Shown here piece after piece: positions 1,557 through 45,858 of a DNA stretch of 64,000 nucleotides. Under the pieces are notes generated by a model, which did no database searches, was not told the DNA's origin, and was given only the letters and a program-made list of their open reading frames with translations. Every line of letters begins with the position of its first letter. Within the stretch, counting starts at the first letter, position 1. Location of the stretch: assembly GCA_009772935.1 (NCBI GenBank), contig WOUR01000002.1, positions 62,001 through 126,000 of the forward strand. The letters are read 5' to 3'. The stretch comes from Rhodospirillaceae bacterium (GTDB taxonomy: Bacteria > Pseudomonadota > Alphaproteobacteria > Reyranellales > Reyranellaceae). A program made the translations under genes and the position numbers.

Positions 1557-3326
1557 ATGAACGTTGTGCTGGGCGATCTGCCGACCTGGAATCTGGCCGA
1601 CCTCTATTCGAGCCCGGGCGGGACGGATCTCGACGCCGACCTGAAGCGTGCCGCCGCCGAGGCGGATGCCTTCGCCAAGGATTACGAGGGCAGGATCGTC
1701 GGCCTCGACGGCAAGGCGCTGGGCGGCGCGATCGTCCGCCTCGAGGCGATGAGCGACCTGCTGGGCCGGATCGGCTCCTACGCCCAGCTCTATTCCGCCC
1801 AGGACCTGTCCGACCCCGAGCGCAGTCGCTTCGCGCAGGACATTTCCGAGAAGCTGAACGATATCGGCTCGAAGCTCCTGTTCTTCCGGCTCGAAATCAA
1901 CAAGATCGAGGATGCCGATCTTGCCGAGAAGCTGAAGGCGCCGGAACTTGCCAAGTACGGGCCATGGCTGCGCGACGCGCGCCTGTTCCGGCCGCACCAG
2001 CTTTCCGACGAGCTGGAGAAGTTCCAGCATGACCAGTCGGTGGTCGGCAGCAGCGCCTGGTCGCGCCTGTTCGACGAGACGATCGCGCGGCTGCGCTACC
2101 CGTTCGGCAACGAGATGCTGACCGAGCCGCAGATCCTCGACAAGCTGTCGAACAAGGACGCCGCGGTGCGCAAGGAAGCCGCCAAGTCGTTCGGCAAGGT
2201 GCAGGGCGACAATATCGCGGTCTTCTCGCTGGTCACCAACACGCTGATCAAGGACAAGGAGATCGACGATCGCTGGCGCAAGTATGCCCGCCCGCAATCG
2301 TTCCGCAACCTGGCCAACGTGGTCGAGGACGAGGTCGTCGACGCGCTCGCGGCCTCGGTGAAGGCGGCCTACCCGAAGCTTTCGCACCGCTATTACAGGC
2401 TCAAGGCCAGGTGGTTCGGCGTCGAGACGATGCCCTACTGGGACCGCAACGCGCCGCTGCCCGAGCATGACGACCGCACGATCCCGTGGCCCGAGGCCGA
2501 GAAGATAGTTCTCGACGCCTACAATGCCTTCTCGCCCGAGCTGGCCGACGTCGGCCGCAAGTTCTTCGGCACCGGCTGGATCGACGCGCCGGCCCGGCCG
2601 GGAAAGTCGCCGGGCGCCTTCGCCCATCCCACGGTGCCGTCGGCGCACCCCTATCTGCTGCTGAACTACCAGGGCAAGGTGCGGGACGTGATGACGCTCG
2701 CGCACGAGCTGGGCCATGGCGTTCACCAGGTGCTGGCGGCCAGGCAGGGCCCACTGATGGCCGACACGCCGCTCACCCTGGCCGAGACCGCCTCGGTGTT
2801 CGGCGAGATGCTGACCTTCCAATCGCTGCTCAGGACCGCGCCCGACAAGGCGACGCGCAAGGCGATGCTGGCCGGCAAGGTCGAGGACATGCTGAACACC
2901 GTGGTGCGCCAGATCGCGTTCTACGACTTCGAGTCCCGTATCCACATGGCGCGCCGCGAGGGCGAACTCACGCCGGACGCGATCGGCGAGATCTGGATGG
3001 CGGTGCAGAAGGAGAGCCTCGGCCCGGCCTTCACCTTCGACGACGAGTACAGGCACTACTGGTCCTATATCGGCCACTTCATCCACTCGCCGTTCTACGT
3101 CTACGCCTATGCGTTCGGCGATTGCCTGGTGAACTCGCTCTATGCCGCCTATCAGGCCCAGCCCGACGGCTTCCAGGAGAAGTATCTCGACATGCTGCGA
3201 TCGGGCGGCGTGAAGCGTCACAAGGAGCTGCTGGCGCCGTTCGGCCTCGACGCCTCCGACCCCGCCTTCTGGGACAAGGGTCTCGACGTGATCTCGGGCT
3301 TCATCGACGAGCTGGAGAAACTGTAG
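1557..3326 (+). CDS. M3 family oligoendopeptidase (PepF-like)
   Basis: Cytosolic zinc metallopeptidase of family M3, 589 aa, expected to degrade short peptides. The zinc site is HELGH at residues 383-387, and the downstream LAETASVFGEM provides the third ligand glutamate. A tyrosine-rich Y-x-Y stretch near the C-terminus (FYVYAYAFGDCL) matches the substrate-binding region of PepF-type enzymes. ATG 1557 is preferred over TTG 1551 because GGGAG at 1545-1549 gives 7-nt spacing to the ATG. The next gene starts 6 nt after the stop, so the two are probably cotranscribed. Confidence 0.93.
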   Translation: MNVVLGDLPTWNLADLYSSPGGTDLDADLKRAAAEADAFAKDYEGRIVGLDGKALGGAIVRLEAMSDLLGRIGSYAQLYSAQDLSDPERSRFAQDISEKLNDIGSKLLFFRLEINKIEDADLAEKLKAPELAKYGPWLRDARLFRPHQLSDELEKFQHDQSVVGSSAWSRLFDETIARLRYPFGNEMLTEPQILDKLSNKDAAVRKEAAKSFGKVQGDNIAVFSLVTNTLIKDKEIDDRWRKYARPQSFRNLANVVEDEVVDALAASVKAAYPKLSHRYYRLKARWFGVETMPYWDRNAPLPEHDDRTIPWPEAEKIVLDAYNAFSPELADVGRKFFGTGWIDAPARPGKSPGAFAHPTVPSAHPYLLLNYQGKVRDVMTLAHELGHGVHQVLAARQGPLMADTPLTLAETASVFGEMLTFQSLLRTAPDKATRKAMLAGKVEDMLNTVVRQIAFYDFESRIHMARREGELTPDAIGEIWMAVQKESLGPAFTFDDEYRHYWSYIGHFIHSPFYVYAYAFGDCLVNSLYAAYQAQPDGFQEKYLDMLRSGGVKRHKELLAPFGLDASDPAFWDKGLDVISGFIDELEKL

Positions 3327-35611: not shown

Positions 35612-35693
35612 CCTTGGGCTGGCGGACCAACCGCCGGCGGCCCACAGTCCCTTCAAGAAGACTGACCCTACCGATCGTTGGAGGACGATGCTC

Positions 35694-36836
35694 GTGACTG
35701 CCGCTCTGGCCGCGCATTACACGCAAGAACACCAGATGTTCCGTAAGACCTGCCGGCGCTTCTTCGAAAAGGAAGTGACCCCGTTCCACATGAAGTGGGA
35801 GGAAGAGGGAATCGTGCCGCGCGACCTGTGGCGCAAGGCGGGCGAGCAGGGGCTTCTGGGCATGACCATGCCTGAGGCCTATGGCGGCGCGGGCGCGGAT
35901 TTCCTCTACAGCGCGATCATGATCGAGGAGCAGGGACGGGCGCTGGCGTCCGGGCCGGCCTTCTCGCTGCACAACGACATCGTGGTTCCCTACCTGCTCC
36001 ACTACGGCACGGAAGAGCAGAAGAAGAAGTGGATTCCCAAGGCCTGCTCCGGCGAGCTGGTGACGGCCATCGCCATGACCGAGCCGGGCACAGGCTCCGA
36101 CCTTCAGGCGGTGAAGACGACGGCCGTCATGGATGGCAACGAGTGGGTCATCAACGGCTCCAAGACCTTCATTTCCAACGGCCAGCTCGCCGACCTGGTG
36201 ATCGTGGTCGCCAAGACCGATCCCAAGCTCGGCGCCAAGGGAACATCCTTGATTGCCGTCGAGACGAAGACCGAAGGCTTCAAGCGCGGCCGCAATCTCG
36301 AGAAGATCGGCATGAAGGCGCAGGACACGTCGGAGCTGTTCTTCCAGGACGTGCGCGTGCCGGCGGATCACCTGCTGGGCGGGCCGGGCATGGGCTTCGT
36401 CCAGCTGATGCAGCAGCTGCCGCAGGAGCGGCTGGTCATCGCCATCCAGGCGGTGGCGGCCATCGAGGCGGCGCTGGAGCATACGCTCGCCTACGTGAAG
36501 GAGCGCAAGGCGTTCGGGAAGCAGATCATCGATTTCCAGAACACGCGCTTCAAGCTGGCCGAACTCAAGACCAAGGCCCATATCGCGCGTGTCTTCGTCG
36601 ACGACTGCGTGGCCAAGCACCTCAAGGGCGAGCTCGACGTCGCGACCGCGGCGATGGCCAAGTACTGGACGACCGAGCTGCAGTGCGAACTGATCGACGA
36701 GTGCCTGCAGTTCCACGGCGGCTACGGCTACATGTGGGAATACCCGATCGCCCGCCTCTACGCCGACGCCCGCGTGCAGAAGATCTACGGCGGCACCAAC
36801 GAGATCATGAAGGAACTGATCGGGCGGACGCTCTGA
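35694..36836 (+). CDS. Acyl-CoA dehydrogenase
   Basis: About 380-aa FAD enzyme for the first beta-oxidation step (isovaleryl- or long-chain-type). The family motifs are AMTEPGTGSDL, NGSKTFISNG, and QFHGGYGYMWEYPIAR with the catalytic glutamate region; YGGTNEIMKELIGR at the end. GTG 35694 is preferred: GGAGGA (35680-35685) sits 8 nt before it but only 2 nt before ATG 35688. Followed by a REP pair and the thiolase gene. Confidence 0.95.
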   Translation: MTAALAAHYTQEHQMFRKTCRRFFEKEVTPFHMKWEEEGIVPRDLWRKAGEQGLLGMTMPEAYGGAGADFLYSAIMIEEQGRALASGPAFSLHNDIVVPYLLHYGTEEQKKKWIPKACSGELVTAIAMTEPGTGSDLQAVKTTAVMDGNEWVINGSKTFISNGQLADLVIVVAKTDPKLGAKGTSLIAVETKTEGFKRGRNLEKIGMKAQDTSELFFQDVRVPADHLLGGPGMGFVQLMQQLPQERLVIAIQAVAAIEAALEHTLAYVKERKAFGKQIIDFQNTRFKLAELKTKAHIARVFVDDCVAKHLKGELDVATAAMAKYWTTELQCELIDECLQFHGGYGYMWEYPIARLYADARVQKIYGGTNEIMKELIGRTL

Positions 36837-36989: not shown

Positions 36990-38201
36990 ATGACCGACGC
37001 ATACATCTACGACGCCGTCCGCACCCCGCGTGGCAAGGGCCGCAAGGATGGCTCGCTGCACGAAGTGACGCCGGTGCGTCTGGCCGTCACCGCGCTGCAG
37101 GCCGTGCGGGACCGCAACCATCTCGACACGCACCTGGTCGACGACATCGTGCTGGGCTGCGTCATGCCGATCGGCGAGCAGGGCGCCGACATCGCGCGCA
37201 CCGCGTCGGTGATGGCGGGCTATGCCGAGACCGTCTCGGGCGTGCAGGTCAACCGCTTCTGCGCCTCGGGCCTCGAAGCCACCAACATGGCGGCGGCGCA
37301 GGTCATGTCGGGCCAGAGCCAGGCCGCGATCGGCGGCGGCGTCGAGAGCATGAGCCGCGTGCCGATGGGCTCGGACGGCGGCGCCTGGGCGGTCGACCCG
37401 GCCGTGGCGATCCCGATGTACTTCGTGCCGCAGGGCGTTTCGGCCGACCTGATCGCCACCAAGTACGGCATGAGCCGCGACGACGTCGACAGCTACGCCG
37501 TCGAATCGCAGAGGCGCGCCAAGGCCGCCTGGGACGCCGGCTACTTCAAGAAGTCGATCGTGCCGGTGCGCGACCAGAACGGCATCGAGCTGCTGGCCCA
37601 CGACGAGTTCCTGCGTCCGACCACGACCATGCAGACGCTGGCCGCGCTGGAGCCCAGCTTCAAGATGCAGGGCGAGATGATGCCGGGCTTCAACGCGGTG
37701 GCGCAGCAGCGCTATCCCGAGGTCGAGAAGATCAATCACGTGCACCATGCCGGCAACTCGTCGGGCATCGTCGACGGCGCCGCGGCCATCCTGGTCGGCA
37801 GCAAGGAGTTCGGCGAGAAGGCCGGCCTCAAGCCGCGCGCGCGGATCCGTTCGTTCGCCTCGATCGGCTCGGAGCCGGCGATCATGCTGACCGGCCCGGC
37901 GCCGGCCTCGGAGAAGGCGCTGAAGCGCGCCGGCATGTCGGTGGGCGACATCGACCTGTTCGAATTGAACGAGGCCTTCGCCGCCGTCGTGCTGCGCTAC
38001 ATGCAGATCCTCAAGATGCCGCACGACAAGATCAACGTGAACGGCGGCGCGATCGCCATGGGCCATCCGCTGGGCGCCACCGGGGCGATGATCCTCGGCA
38101 CGCTGCTCGACGAGCTCGAGCGCCGCAACCTCTCGACCGGCCTCGCCACGCTCTGCGTCGGCGGCGGCATGGGCACCGCCACCATCATCGAGCGCGTCTG
38201 A
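36990..38201 (+). CDS. Acetyl-CoA C-acyltransferase (thiolase)
   Basis: 403-aa thiolase cleaving 3-ketoacyl-CoA. Active site cysteine is in [10 protein letters not shown], the second histidine in [14 protein letters not shown], and the third in [11 protein letters not shown]. Full length for a FadA-type thiolase. It lies downstream of the acyl-CoA dehydrogenase gene and upstream of the multifunctional FadJ gene; REP elements separate all three, so cotranscription is plausible but not certain. Confidence 0.95.
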
Positions 38202-38217
38202 GAAACCTCGACCCATT

Positions 38218-38327
38218 GCCGACCCTTCGAGACGGCCGCTGCGCGGCCTCCTCAGGGTGAGGCAGTGGCTCTAGGAAAATCCTCACCCTGAGGAGCGAGC
38301 AGAGCGAGCGTCTCGAAGGGTGGCCAC
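38218..38327. repeat. REP-like inverted pair (family 1, copy 3)
   Basis: Here the order is reversed: unit B at 38218-38262 (CCCTTCGAGACG, stem GGCCGC-TGC-GCGGCC, CTCCTCAGGG), then unit A at 38281-38327 (CACCCTGAGGAG ... CGTCTCGAAGGGTG). The outer arms CACCCT and AGGGTG pair. The central sequence of this unit A (GCGAGCAGAGCGAGC) is a direct repeat, not an inverted one, so this unit is partly degenerate. Confidence 0.8.
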
Positions 38328-38349: not shown

Positions 38350-40599
38350 ATGATCAACTACAACGTCGATTCGGACGGCATCGCGACCATCACCTGGGAC
38401 ATGCCCAACCGCGCGATGAACGTGCTGAACGAGGCCTCGATGACGGCCTATGCCGGCGCGCTCGAGACCGCGCTGAAGGACGAGAAGGTCAAGGGCATCA
38501 TCATCACGTCGGGCAAGGACAGCTTCATCGCCGGTGCCGACCTCGAGATGATCCTGGGCCTCGACACGTCCGACGCGTCGAAGCTGATGGAGCAGTTCAG
38601 CCAGCTGCAGAAGATGTTCCGCCGCCAGGAGACCGGCGGCAAGCCGATCGTGGCCGCGATCAACGGCACGGCGCTGGGCGGCGGCTTCGAGATCTGCCTC
38701 GCCACCCACTATCGCATCGCCGCGGCCAACCCGAAGACCAAGGTCGGCCAGCCCGAGGTCAAGATCGGCCTGCTGCCGGGCGGCGGCGGTACGCAGCGCA
38801 TTCCGCGCCTGATCGGCGTGCAGAACGCGGCGCCTATCCTGCTCGAAGGCAAGGACCTCACGGTCGACGCCGCCAAGGGCCTGGGTCTCATTCACGAGGT
38901 CGTGCCGGCGGACGAGCTGCTGGTCCGCGCCAAGGCCTGGCTGACGGCGCCGGCGACCGAGCAGGTCGTGCCGGAATATGCCGGCAAGGGCGCCAAGGCG
39001 ATCGACGGCCGCGCCGTGCAGCCGTGGGACCGCAAGGGCTTCAAGGTGCCGGGCTTCCCCGGCGGCCAGGTCTGGAGCCCGCCGGGCGTCATGACCTTCA
39101 TCGGCGGCAGCGCCATGGTGCGCGGCAAGACCAACGGCGTCTATCCGGCGCCGAAGGCGATCATGAGCTGCGTGTACGAGGGCCTTCAGCTGCCGTTCGA
39201 TGCCGGCCTCAAGGTCGAGACCCGCTACTTCGTCTCGCTGCTGCGCGACCCCGTCGCCAAGAGCATGATCCGCACCCTGTTCTTCGGGCTGCAGGAAGCC
39301 AACAAGCTGGTGCGCCGGCCGAAGGGCGTTCCGAAGCAGGAGTACAAGAAGATCGGCGTGCTGGGCGCCGGCCTGATGGGCGCCGGCATCGCCACCGTCT
39401 CGGTGCAGGCCGGGCTCGACATCGTGCTGATCGATCGCGACCAGGCGGCGGCCGACAAGGGCAAGGCGCACATCGCCGACGAGCTGGGCAAGCTGGTGAA
39501 GCGCAAGCGCCTCGACCAGGCGAAGGCCGACGCCATGCTGGCCAAGGTCACGGCGACGCCGGACTTCGGCGCGCTCAAGGACTGCGACCTCGTGATCGAG
39601 GCGGTGTTCGAGAACCGCGAAGTGAAGGCCGAGGCCACGAAGAAGGCCGAGGCTGCGCTGCCGAAGACCGCGGTGTTCGCGTCGAACACCTCGACCCTGC
39701 CGATCACCGGCCTCGCCGAAGCCTCGGCGCGGCCCGACCAGTTCATCGGCCTGCACTTCTTCTCGCCGGTCGAGAAGATGCCGCTGGTCGAGATCATCGT
39801 CGGGCAGAAGACCTCGCAGGAGACGCTCGCGCGGGCTCTCGATTACGTCCAGAAGATCCGCAAGACGCCGATTGTCGTGAACGACAGCCGCGGCTTCTTC
39901 ACCTCCCGCGTCTGCGGCGCCTTCATCAGCGAAGGCCATCGCATGCTGAAGGAGGGCGTCCCGGCCGCCATGATCGAGAACTGCGCGCGCTATGCCGGCA
40001 TGCCGGTCGGCCCGCTGTCGCTCAACGACGAGGTCGCCATCGACCTGTCGTGGAAGATCATGGACCAGACCCGGCGCGACGCCGAGGCCGCGGGCCAGAA
40101 GTTCGAGGGCGGGGGCACCGAGGACATCCTCGAGCTGATGGTCAAGAAGCTGGAGCGCTTCGGCCGCAAGAACGGCAAGGGCTTCTACGAGTATCCGGCC
40201 GACGGCAAGAAGCGCCTGTGGCCGGAGCTGCAGAAGTACTTCCCGGCCGATCCGGCGCTGCTCTACGGCGAGGGCGAGGAGAAGCGCGCCAAGGAGGACG
40301 AGATCAAGAAGCGCCTGCTCTACGTGCAGGCGGTCGACACCGCGCGCTGCCTCGAGAGCAACGTGCTGACCAACCCGCAGGACGGCGACGTCGGCTCGAT
40401 CATGGGCCTGGGCTTCGCGCCGCAGACCGGCGGCGCCATCAGCCTGATCGACCAGGTCGGCATCAAGACGTTCGTCGCCGAGTGCGACGAGTTCGCGAAA
40501 AAGTACGGCCCTCAGTTCGAGGTGCCGAAGCTGCTGCGCGACATGGCCGCCAAGGGCGCAAGCTTCTACGGCAAGTACCAGCCCGCCAAGGCAGCCTGA
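38350..40599 (+). CDS. fadJ: Fatty acid oxidation multifunctional enzyme (enoyl-CoA hydratase/3-hydroxyacyl-CoA dehydrogenase)
   Basis: 749 aa. The N-terminal crotonase domain (1-~190) has GSKDSFIAGADLEM-like motif (SGKDSFIAGADLEM) and GGGFEICLATHYRIA; the second domain (~330-620) has the NAD motif GVLGAGLMGAGIA and FFSPVEKMPLVEI with the catalytic His region. Domain order is FadB/FadJ. ATG 38350 follows a GGAGA. Ends 72 nt before the next gene. Completes the beta-oxidation set. Confidence 0.95.
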   Translation: MINYNVDSDGIATITWDMPNRAMNVLNEASMTAYAGALETALKDEKVKGIIITSGKDSFIAGADLEMILGLDTSDASKLMEQFSQLQKMFRRQETGGKPIVAAINGTALGGGFEICLATHYRIAAANPKTKVGQPEVKIGLLPGGGGTQRIPRLIGVQNAAPILLEGKDLTVDAAKGLGLIHEVVPADELLVRAKAWLTAPATEQVVPEYAGKGAKAIDGRAVQPWDRKGFKVPGFPGGQVWSPPGVMTFIGGSAMVRGKTNGVYPAPKAIMSCVYEGLQLPFDAGLKVETRYFVSLLRDPVAKSMIRTLFFGLQEANKLVRRPKGVPKQEYKKIGVLGAGLMGAGIATVSVQAGLDIVLIDRDQAAADKGKAHIADELGKLVKRKRLDQAKADAMLAKVTATPDFGALKDCDLVIEAVFENREVKAEATKKAEAALPKTAVFASNTSTLPITGLAEASARPDQFIGLHFFSPVEKMPLVEIIVGQKTSQETLARALDYVQKIRKTPIVVNDSRGFFTSRVCGAFISEGHRMLKEGVPAAMIENCARYAGMPVGPLSLNDEVAIDLSWKIMDQTRRDAEAAGQKFEGGGTEDILELMVKKLERFGRKNGKGFYEYPADGKKRLWPELQKYFPADPALLYGEGEEKRAKEDEIKKRLLYVQAVDTARCLESNVLTNPQDGDVGSIMGLGFAPQTGGAISLIDQVGIKTFVAECDEFAKKYGPQFEVPKLLRDMAAKGASFYGKYQPAKAA

Positions 40600-40625
40600 A
40601 CGGACTGCATCGCTTGCACTGACGC

Positions 40626-40680
40626 GGCGTCCACGGCAATTATCCCTTCCTCAAATCTGGAGGGAATTGCCGTGGACGCC
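40626..40680 (+). promoter_or_regulatory. Perfect hairpin covering the hydratase Shine-Dalgarno and start codon
   Basis: Arms GGCGTCCACGGCAATT (40626-40641) and AATTGCCGTGGACGCC (40665-40680) are exact inverse complements, 16 bp. After a two-base bulge, CCCTTC (40644-40649) can pair with GGAGGG (40659-40664). GTG start (40672-40674) and Shine-Dalgarno are both inside the fold. No T-run follows. A translation-control structure is inferred. Confidence 0.65.
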
Positions 40681-41460
40681 AAGGAAATCGCCGCACTCGC
40701 CGACCGTATCGTCGAAGGCCGCTGCTCGAAGACGACGATGGACTGGCTTGCGGATGCCACGGCGAGCCTCTCCGAGGCCGATGCCTACAAGGTCCAGTTC
40801 GCGGTTCACGACAAGCTCGAGGGCGCTGGCTGGAAGCTCGCCGGCTGGAAGGTCGCCTTCGCCGTTCCGGCCCAGTACGAGCCGCTGAAGCTCTCGGGTC
40901 CGGCCTTCGCCGGCATCTACACGAGCGGCATCCGCCAGAGTGGCGCGGTGTTCGAGAAGGGCTGGCCGCTCAAGGCCGGCGTCGAGTGCGAGATGGTGGC
41001 GCGCATGGCCAAGGACGTGCCGGTCGGCACGGAATACACCGCCCAGTCGATCCAGGACTTCGTCGCCAACCTCTATTGCGGCATGGAAGTCGTCGAGAAC
41101 CGCTACGGCGACGCCTCCAAGCTGGGCGGCCCGGGCCGGATTGCCGACGACGTGCTGCAGGCCGCCTGCATCGTCGGCACCGAGATCAAGGACTGGCAGA
41201 AGACCGACTTTGCCAACGTGAAGGGCCGCTCCGAGTTCGAGGGCAAGGAGATCGGCGCCGGTCCCGGCAGCAACGTGATGGGCGGCGCGATGATCTCGCT
41301 CGCGTGGCTGGCCAACAGGCTGATCGCCAACGGCAAGCAGTTGAAGGCCGGCGACATGATCCTGACCGGCTCGGTGCACCCGCCGCAGTTCCTGCCGGGC
41401 GCCGGCGTTGCGAAGACCGAGTTCGTCGGGCTGGGCGGGGCGGAGATCACCGTCAAGTAA
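40672..41460 (+). CDS. 2-oxopent-4-enoate hydratase/fumarylacetoacetate hydrolase-like protein
   Basis: 262 aa, FAH superfamily (MhpD/HpcG-like). N-terminus DAKEIAALADRIVEGRCSKTTMDWLADAT matches hydratases; metal-binding glutamates in AGVECEMVARMA and GMEVVENRYG; LKAGDMILTGSVHPP near the end. Likely hydrates a 2-hydroxy-dienoate from meta-cleavage of aromatics. GTG start with GGAGGGA 6 nt upstream, all inside a hairpin. Cotranscribed with the cupin gene, 25 nt downstream. Confidence 0.85.
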   Translation: MDAKEIAALADRIVEGRCSKTTMDWLADATASLSEADAYKVQFAVHDKLEGAGWKLAGWKVAFAVPAQYEPLKLSGPAFAGIYTSGIRQSGAVFEKGWPLKAGVECEMVARMAKDVPVGTEYTAQSIQDFVANLYCGMEVVENRYGDASKLGGPGRIADDVLQAACIVGTEIKDWQKTDFANVKGRSEFEGKEIGAGPGSNVMGGAMISLAWLANRLIANGKQLKAGDMILTGSVHPPQFLPGAGVAKTEFVGLGGAEITVK

Positions 41461-41485: not shown

Positions 41486-41971
41486 ATGGCAAAGCCGATC
41501 GCGAACCTCGACGACGTGGCCTTCGACGACGTCGAGGAGGACGGCCTCTACACCTCCCGCCGCGCCCGCTTCAGCGACGCGATCGGCGCTCGCAACCTAG
41601 GCTACAACCTCACGCTCCTGCCGCCCGGCAAGGCGCAGTGCCCGTTCCACAGCCATCACGGTGAGGAGGAGATGTTCCTCATCCTGGAGGGCGAGGGCGA
41701 ACTGCGGTTCGGCGAGGAGCGGCATCCGATCCGCAAGCACGACGTCATCGCCTGTCCGCCGGGCGGGCCTGAGGTGGCGCACCAGATCATCAACACCGGC
41801 ACCGAGACGATGCGCTATCTCGCCGTCTCGACCCGCGTCCCGCTCGATTCCTGCGAGTATCCGGACTCCGGCAAGATCTCGATCGTCGCCGGCAACGGCA
41901 ATGCCACGACGCTCTGGAAGATGTTCCGCGCGGAGACCACGGTCGACTACTACGACCGCGAGAAGAAGTAG
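41486..41971 (+). CDS. Cupin-domain protein
   Basis: 161-aa single-domain cupin. Motif 1 CPFHSHHGEEEMFLILEGEGELRFG carries His, His and Glu ligands; motif 2 region is PPGGPEVAHQIINTG. May bind a metal and act in catabolism with the neighbouring hydratase. AGGAGG precedes ATG 41486. Substrate unknown. 22-nt tail overlap with the convergent gene. Confidence 0.85.
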   Translation: MAKPIANLDDVAFDDVEEDGLYTSRRARFSDAIGARNLGYNLTLLPPGKAQCPFHSHHGEEEMFLILEGEGELRFGEERHPIRKHDVIACPPGGPEVAHQIINTGTETMRYLAVSTRVPLDSCEYPDSGKISIVAGNGNATTLWKMFRAETTVDYYDREKK

Positions 41972-44925: not shown

Positions 44926-45858
44926 CTAGCGGCGCGCCATCGCCGACATCGGCGGCCGATGACCGTTGCTCATCATTGGACGCATGGCCGGGCCGGCCGA
45001 GGCCGTGATGGCCGGCTGGGCCGCCATGCCGGTACGGATATCCCGCGCAACCTTGACCAGGCGCGGGCCCCAGTCGGCTTCGAGACGGTCGCGGCTGATC
45101 TGGTAGATCGGCGCCGAGGCATTGACGGCATAGGCCGCCGTACCATCGGAATTGCGCAGGGGAGCGCCGACGCCGCAGAGCTCGGGCAGCCACTCGCCCC
45201 AGGTGACGCAGAAGCCGCGGTCGGCCAGTTCCTTGAACGAGCGCTCGAGGCCGGTCTTGACCTTGGTCCAGTCGTCGCGCCAGCGGCGGCGGATCGCGTC
45301 GATCTGCTTGTTGCGGTCGACGTCCGGCAGCGTGAACAGGTAGGCGCGGCCCATCGCCGTGCTGGCCATCGGGACGCGGGTGCCGACATCGTGGGTGATC
45401 GCCACCACGGACGGGCCGCGGCAGGCTTCGAGGTAGATCATCGAGTGACGGTCGCGCCCACCCAGCGCGGTCGAGGCGTTGAGGGCATGCGCGAGCTGCT
45501 CCAGCGGCTGACGCGAGGCACGGCGGACGTCCATGCTCGAGATCGCAGCATAGCCCAGCGCCAGGACCGAGGCGCCCAGCTCGTACTTCCGGAAGCGGCG
45601 GATGTAGTTGAGGTAACCCAGCTCGGTCAGCGTGTGGGTGAGGCGGGCGACGGTCGGCTTCGGCAAGCCGGTGCGGTGGGCGATTTCCTGATTGCCCAGC
45701 ATGCCCTCGCCGGCGTGGAAGGCGCGCAGGATGTCGAGGCCGCGGGCCAGCGCCGTGACGAACTGGCGATCCTTGCTGCTCGAACCCTCGGCGAGGCCGT
45801 TTTCGACCGAGCTCTGGAAAGCCGCGGTTCGCGTTACGAGATGACTGACGTTGCCCAT
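44926..45858 (-). CDS. IclR-family transcriptional regulator
   Basis: 310 aa. N-terminal winged helix (about 31-90: QFVTALARGLDILRAF, GNQEIAHRTGLPKPTVARLTHTLTELGYL) and C-terminal effector domain (VVAITHDVGTRVPMASTAMGRAYL, LRNSDGTAAYAVNAS). The tail after residue 280 is low-complexity and Met/Pro-rich. IclR regulators commonly control aromatic or short-acid catabolism and may govern the thioesterase gene behind it. Confidence 0.9.
   Translation of the reverse strand: MGNVSHLVTRTAAFQSSVENGLAEGSSSKDRQFVTALARGLDILRAFHAGEGMLGNQEIAHRTGLPKPTVARLTHTLTELGYLNYIRRFRKYELGASVLALGYAAISSMDVRRASRQPLEQLAHALNASTALGGRDRHSMIYLEACRGPSVVAITHDVGTRVPMASTAMGRAYLFTLPDVDRNKQIDAIRRRWRDDWTKVKTGLERSFKELADRGFCVTWGEWLPELCGVGAPLRNSDGTAAYAVNASAPIYQISRDRLEADWGPRLVKVARDIRTGMAAQPAITASAGPAMRPMMSNGHRPPMSAMARR

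Follow-up and report, generated by a model that had tools for sequence, protein, structure and literature searches.

A conserved hairpin over the start of an alphaproteobacterial hydratase gene holds a putative promoter and may silence read-through mRNA

Introduction

Internal promoters are common in bacterial operons, and transcription that reads through from genes upstream is usually thought to add to expression. In the transposase genes of IS10 and IS50, read-through mRNA from outside folds at the end of the element and hides the ribosome-binding site (RBS), and the element's own promoter starts transcription inside. In enterobacterial pyrC, the C-rich initiation region of the transcript pairs with the Shine-Dalgarno (SD) sequence, and the position of the start decides whether the mRNA folds. 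An RBS hairpin with a promoter embedded in it has been described in phages and would, to our knowledge, be unusual for a chromosomal metabolic gene. For phage T4 I-TevI, the accessible part of PMC2988022 describes a hairpin that hides the RBS in transcripts from upstream promoters, with a promoter at the gene giving open mRNAs; the same part lists I-TevII, I-TevIII, segB and Aeh1 mobE as of the same kind, along with RBS hairpins in T4 e and soc. An SD hairpin combined with short and long transcripts is described for the Yersinia yopN RNA thermometer in the accessible part of PMC8612567.

Here we analyse a hairpin at the start of a hydratase gene in a 64,000-nt stretch of DNA (the window, to which all positions refer unless another record is named). 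The hairpin is real, is conserved in part of the genus, within the Reyranella group of bacteria, and is probably functional. Among the open PMC papers listed for this topic, none dealt with this hydratase gene or its hairpin, and 8 of 409 papers on Reyranella appear from their titles to be surveys of communities or studies of hosts.

Results

The hydratase gene follows three genes of beta-oxidation type and is itself followed by a cupin gene:

35688-36836, + strand: acyl-CoA dehydrogenase-like protein (all models below cut-off)
36990-38201, + strand: acetyl-CoA C-acetyltransferase (thiolase; NF006090 over cut-off)
38350-40599, + strand: FadJ-like enoyl-CoA hydratase/3-hydroxyacyl-CoA dehydrogenase (FadJ models below cut-off), presumed source of read-through
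40672-41460, + strand: hydratase/decarboxylase of the 2-keto-4-pentenoate hydratase kind (FAH superfamily; PF01557 at 23.8 bits against a cut-off of 23.9)
41486-41971, + strand: cupin-domain protein of the gene that follows, counted from its ATG (PF07883 at E 3.9e-17 in a scan that began one codon earlier)
44926-45858: IclR/PcaR-type regulator gene (PcaR/PcaU-like models below cut-off)

NCBIfam DmpH/DmpE models match the hydratase far below cut-off. The stop codon of fadJ lies 72 nt upstream of the hydratase GTG on the same strand, and the order of the beta-oxidation genes and the hydratase is retained across much of the genus. A scan of 40400-40800 revealed no terminator-like site between fadJ and the hydratase, and the hairpin was accordingly rejected as an intrinsic terminator, which calls for a T run after the GC stem.

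The hairpin spans the RBS and the start codon:

40626-40641, + strand: left outer arm GGCGTCCACGGCAATT, found as an inverted-repeat match
40644-40652, + strand: inner left arm (anti-SD) CCCTTCCTC, doubling as discriminator between the putative -10 and the predicted start
40659-40664, + strand: SD, GGAGGG
40665-40680, + strand: right outer arm AATTGCCGTGGACGCC, holding the GTG start and the first codons

The original prediction had described a perfect 16-bp inverted repeat that includes the GTG, extended by six pairs between CCCTTC and GGAGGG, and held that folding would hide the SD and the start codon. Both statements hold: the outer arms of 16 nt each are 100% complementary across 23 intervening nucleotides, CCCTTC (40644-40649) faces the SD as an inner stem, the GTG (at 40672) lies within the right arm, and SD and start codon are both paired in the predicted fold of the long transcript. 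The folding energy that it proposed to compute is likewise in line with a stable structure, with -50.5 kcal/mol for the RNA of 40600-40710 (z -5.45; 0 of 200 dinucleotide shuffles equally stable) and -23.6 kcal/mol predicted for the core hairpin alone. Only two perfect inverted repeats of at least 14 nt (loop 3-40) are present in the window, the start-site hairpin and one other. The other lies within a dispersed REP/REPIN-like palindromic repeat between thiolase and fadJ (38215-38320; 78 matches in its own genome). The start-site hairpin is single copy: a search of its own genome returned nothing below E 0.01 besides the hairpin itself and its reverse complement, and it was therefore rejected as a dispersed REP-type repeat.

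Comparison with the nearest relatives separates parts of this structure. The GGCAAwT part of the left arm is kept in core relatives (defined below) and the window alone has a perfect GGCGTCC part; in the window's ungapped register, the nearest hairpin-bearing relatives form 10 contiguous pairs (L082 and L060) or 10 including one G-T (L083). By this comparison, the outermost of the 16 pairs are window-specific. The window reads GGCGTCCAC, the perfect complement, at a place where L082 and L060 read GGCGACAC; this perfecting change comes with a promoter spacer of 18 rather than 17. The perfected outer pairs of the window resemble what quasi-palindrome correction would leave.

We read the regions upstream of 65 hydratase genes, comprising orthologues and second tandem copies, and assigned 20 of the 65 loci to a hairpin class in which an SD-facing left arm directly follows an xAxxAT hexamer, mostly behind the same beta-oxidation genes. 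Class membership and hexamers were curated by eye, and a 21st locus (L042), whose upstream region is identical to that of L043, was counted as a duplicate. Twelve core loci share a layout of CTTGC (12/12), 17-18 variable bases after TTGCnn, hexamer, anti-SD arm, loop, SD, TGCC and start codon, in which the outer arms GCAA...TGCC are conserved in their letters at a spacing of 26-32 nt. Across the loci compared, the conserved portion of the hairpin is the inner, SD-pairing stem.

This inner stem covaries in homologues, a check that the original prediction had proposed: pairing is better between the two arms of one locus than after arms are exchanged between genomes. Mean duplex energy in nine core loci was -14.4 for own arms versus -12.3 for swapped arms (p = 0.004, between-genome permutation), and in seventeen loci -13.1 versus -11.1 (p = 0.0004). 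With only one locus per clade (10 clades, 200 draws with 1000 permutations each) the median p was < 0.001 and the worst 0.010. The range of letters is illustrated by the arm pairs CCCTCCCGAT/ATCGGGAGGG in L092, TCCTTCCGGT/ATCGGGAGGA in L094, GTCTTCTGG/CCGGAGGAC in L040 and CCCTCCGAC/GTCGGAGGG in L041. Since the paired letters vary while the SD is kept, these data favour single-strand pairing over a protein-bound DNA palindrome. MAFFT placed the right arms out of register, and pair counts were therefore taken elsewhere than from its alignments. Tests at single loci are weak: the 8-nt SD block scored p < 0.05 against shuffled left sides in 13 of 64 loci (8 in the hairpin class and 5 outside it, L090, L102, L079, L084 and L051), and the window's own SD block, compared with shuffles of its C-rich left side, is not significant alone (p = 0.15). 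We thus rely on the between-genome permutation, and the significance of the window's SD block comes from conservation rather than from a single-locus shuffle test.

The hexamer next to the anti-SD arm suggests a promoter within the hairpin:

40614-40619, + strand: putative -35, TTGCAC, just 5' of the left arm (TTGC in 12/12 core loci)
40638-40643, + strand: putative -10, AATTAT, in the left arm and bulge (xAxxAT in 20/20 curated loci)
40649-40652, + strand: predicted transcription start, 6-9 nt past the -10, from promoter geometry

An xAxxAT hexamer stands immediately 5' of the inner left arm in all 20 class loci, with positions 2 (A), 5 (A) and 6 (T) invariant and positions 1, 3 and 4 varying, a 20/20 figure that is descriptive because the hexamers were chosen by eye. 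The -10 consensus is TATAAT, and invariant A2, A5 and T6 are the pattern expected of a -10 box. In the core loci, TTGCnn is followed at 17-18 nt by AATTAT, AAATAT or AATGAT (12/12), and the spacer letters change; in the eight divergent loci the hexamer is CACAAT, CACTAT or TATGAT and the -35 is poor (8 of the 20 class loci). The putative promoter is weak, as TTGCAC/AATTAT agrees with the consensus at 7 of 12 positions by our own count, and a strict sigma-70 scan of 40400-40800 called no promoter. We also considered a heat-shock type promoter, for which the upstream regions of two groES genes in the same genome show CTTGAC or TTGACA elements (by eye), and dropped this reading as the comparison was not decisive. 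If the hexamer serves as a -10, transcription would start inside the hairpin (around 40649-40652) and the gene's own mRNA would lack the left arm. The original prediction had taken a transcription start inside the hairpin, or an absence of conservation together with a lack of effect of stem mutations, as speaking against translational control; the conserved promoter-like elements predict just such a start, whereas the inner stem is conserved.

Upstream regions that fall outside the class have features of their own. Many hairpin-less orthologues show another promoter-like pair farther upstream, TTGAgc-N16-TACAAa (by eye). In L089-L091, CTTCCTC (CTTCCTCTTC in L089) lies 5' of a TACAAC/TACAAG hexamer and can form pairs with AGAGGAG, the SD; this may be the same principle in a different geometry.

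We modelled the cost of opening the SD in long and short transcripts. For the window, opening is predicted to take 12.5 kcal/mol in fadJ read-through mRNA versus 5.1-5.4 in an mRNA that starts 6-9 nt after the -10. The median for the hairpin class is likewise 12.5 (18 loci), compared with 3.8 for 41 orthologues that do not belong to it (the duplicate L042 included) and with 3.7, 2.5 and 2.9 for 27, 37 and 43 starts of the three upstream genes, respectively. Costs of at least 9 kcal/mol occur in 15 of 18 hairpin loci versus 1 of 109 other-gene starts; with L042 moved to the hairpin class, the figures are 16 of 19 against 2 of 40 orthologues outside. With the leader shortened to 22 nt, the cost falls by a median of 7.5 in the hairpin class and by about 0 elsewhere, and moving the start from 6 to 9 nt after the -10 shifts it by at most about 2.1 kcal/mol in 20 loci. 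The pattern has exceptions within the class: the read-through effect is absent from L063 (2.9 and 2.9) and only modest in L059, L052 and L097 (L097: 7.4 long, 4.1 short). The own-promoter mRNA, at about 5, also remains somewhat harder to open than typical genes, at about 3. In these folding models, translation is predicted to depend on the origin of the transcript. Separately, SD opening at the fadJ start of L095, an Enhydrobacter aerosaccus-like genome, is unusually costly (20.8 kcal/mol).

The hairpin class was found in 18 of 43 loci with fadJ at most 800 nt upstream versus 0 of 14 without (Fisher p = 0.0025), a link that is not significant after kinship correction (sign test median p 1); this count omits three second tandem copies, the duplicate L042 and 7 loci short of upstream sequence, one of which (L097) is of the hairpin class. 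The remaining 25 of the 43 loci with fadJ nearby stand outside the class. The gap between fadJ and the hydratase did not differ significantly in length (medians 124 for 18 hairpin loci and 192 for 32 others, p = 0.10; three second tandem copies and L042 omitted).

On the protein tree, the distribution of the class requires 11 changes, of which well-supported branches force at least 6. The at least six changes show that the hairpin is not essential, and the 11 changes point to a cassette that has been gained, lost or exchanged separately from the coding sequence. In G014, the module sits between two tandem hydratase copies, the first having another upstream region and the second the hairpin, and in G044 it is the first tandem copy that bears the hairpin.

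Other arrangements were observed around these genes. The second tandem copies L048, L059 and L060 have 67-70% identity to the window gene, and upstream regions differ between copies and species. An insert of ~170 nt lies between fadJ and the first hydratase copy at L080, L081, L048, L059 and L083; it has nested inverted repeats, CCTCTCCGCCCGC...GCGGGCGGAGAGG around GGTAGGTGAGGTGGGT...ACCCACCTC, and 4 of these 5 relatives are without a hairpin promoter there. In L085, L054 and L077, also without a hairpin promoter, the short gap to fadJ is taken up by long GC-rich palindromes with T and A runs on their flanks.

Further copies of the module were sought with a sequence pattern and with a covariance model. 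The promoter-half pattern was derived from the core loci themselves, so that only its rarity elsewhere is informative. It gave 14 matches in 13 of 75 genomes, compared with 1 match for a reversed control pattern, and 8 matches in 46 genus genomes (the window's own genome among them), 7 at this hydratase gene and the eighth in G004:C142. With 7 of the 8 genus matches at one gene, the pattern cannot be called a general motif, and a regulon of one operator was rejected because the pattern is almost confined to hydratase loci in the genus. A covariance model built on the 12 core loci was searched in 65 genus genomes with strict filters. Among the matches listed, only the 12 training loci have E values below 1e-10. 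They are followed by 6 additional hydratase starts from the divergent hairpin group and by 9 matches at another gene (27-30 bits), and lower matches include hairpin-less hydratase starts, which implies that the model scores the SD and first codons as much as structure. No second strong copy of the module at other genes appeared among the listed matches of this model.

Eight of the nine weaker matches were read (L161-L168) and are near-identical in sequence. L161 (record G000:C37:15204-15253, minus) precedes an ORF that we take to encode an aminotransferase of the serine-glyoxylate kind. At L161 (around 2740-2810, reverse strand) and its equivalents L162-L168, a stem with varying letters, TCCGCC/GGTGGA or variants of it, overlaps the SD. 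Its SD-hiding effect is milder (predicted opening 3.9-8.5 in the long versus 3.8-5.7 in the short transcript), and these loci have no xAxxAT hexamer, with TTGTTT-N17-CACAGT, a doubtful promoter-like pair, at the corresponding place. This aminotransferase-like gene is a possible, milder and weak second case of the same design.

Discussion

We lean, though only slightly, towards reading the hairpin as a promoter-embedded silencer of read-through mRNA. Transcripts running on from the beta-oxidation genes would hold both arms, fold and hide the SD and start codon, so that the hydratase, and perhaps the cupin too, would not be translated from read-through mRNA. RNA polymerase at the embedded promoter would start inside the hairpin, and the resulting mRNA would lack the anti-SD arm and be translatable. 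The stretch between -10 and start would thus be an untranscribed discriminator for the gene's own transcript, present as an anti-SD arm only in read-through RNA. Because this stretch would be absent from the own mRNA, selection for its complementarity to the SD points to read-through RNA as the target. We infer from sequence the use of the promoter, its start position, the occurrence of read-through and its silencing. Among the suggestions of the original prediction, concerted action of the hairpin with the upstream beta-oxidation transcript is the one favoured here, with silencing as its proposed consequence.

The most direct competitor is a DNA operator, a palindrome binding a repressor or activator (e.g. 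the IclR/PcaR-type regulator encoded at 44926-45858), with RNA folding as a by-product. Conserved outer arms that flank the inner stem and overlap the putative -10 would suit such a site, as would the nearby gene for a PcaR/PcaU-like regulator (below cut-off) in a gene family that is catabolic. Yet the inner stem changes its letters and keeps its pairing, the 26-32 nt between the outer arms of the 12 core loci do not vary in helical steps, and neither pattern nor covariance model (among the matches listed) found a second module copy at other genes, so that we regard an operator as unlikely. Still less probable is a classical leader switch, in which a riboswitch, thermosensor or RNA-binding protein would act on an upstream-started transcript that always holds both arms. 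The predicted pairing of SD and start codon in the long transcript fits it, and the original prediction had raised both riboswitch and thermosensor; against the former, an Rfam scan of the window gave 0 matches at gathering score and the alignments revealed no separate conserved ligand-binding part or other extra structure, and against both, the stability of the core hairpin leaves little room for opening by ligand or heat, being judged too great for melting at growth temperature. Nor would a leader switch account for a -10-like hexamer conserved within the arm.

A further alternative is a pyrC-like start-site switch, in which the C-rich run past the -10 would permit starts at C or at a following G: transcripts starting at C would keep part of the anti-SD and be silent, later starts would be translated, and nucleotide levels would set expression. 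We consider this improbable as well: C-C-G does end at position 7 or 8 past the -10 in L092, L093, L094, L097, L099, L041 and L043, but in the window, L082, L083 and L060 the first purine comes only at position 10, and the choice between starts 6 and 9 alters SD opening by at most about 2.1 kcal/mol in the 20 loci modelled. The structure might finally have no function, a quasi-palindrome made by template switching that overlaps the start and is tolerated because the gene is translated enough. The outer pairs specific to the window look recently perfected (GGCGTCCAC versus GGCGACAC in L082/L060), and the module has been gained or lost often; inner-stem covariation across clades and the fixed place of the hexamer would, however, be left unexplained, and we give this account little credence.

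For silencing of read-through mRNA, a broader and distinctly tentative extension is that the module is a reusable chromosomal cassette in which the discriminator is the anti-SD and translatability depends on where the transcript originates, and possibly on its exact start nucleotide. Such a cassette would be swapped among tandem paralogues and neighbouring species separately from the coding sequence, and would keep an independently controlled gene in a transcribed operon without a terminator. If the preferred reading is true, silencing of read-through mRNA by a hairpin that holds an internal promoter would be a phage trick in a chromosomal metabolic gene cluster, and would caution against taking read-through coverage in RNA-seq as a measure of expression. 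It would also supply a simple signature to seek in other genomes, a -10 box with an anti-SD directly after it.

Compared with the known systems, the locus differs from pyrC, which has one promoter and a switch of start nucleotide, in that its main contrast would be between read-through and its own promoter. With IS10/IS50 it would share an RBS hidden in read-through mRNA and an own start inside the structure, whereas no mobile element is seen at the window locus and the upstream gene is a conserved neighbour. The proposed combination of two transcript forms and an SD hairpin is also found in Yersinia yopN, whose hairpin, unlike that proposed here, forms in both transcripts and melts with heat according to the accessible part of PMC8612567. 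The closest resemblance in working is to T4 I-TevI, although we claim no membership: SD and start codon are predicted to be paired in the upstream-initiated transcript, and a gene-proximal, here putative, promoter would yield mRNA without the hairpin-forming sequence. In place of a phage late promoter, the window has a putative promoter of housekeeping type, and in place of a phage gene, a chromosomal metabolic gene within an alphaproteobacterial gene cluster.
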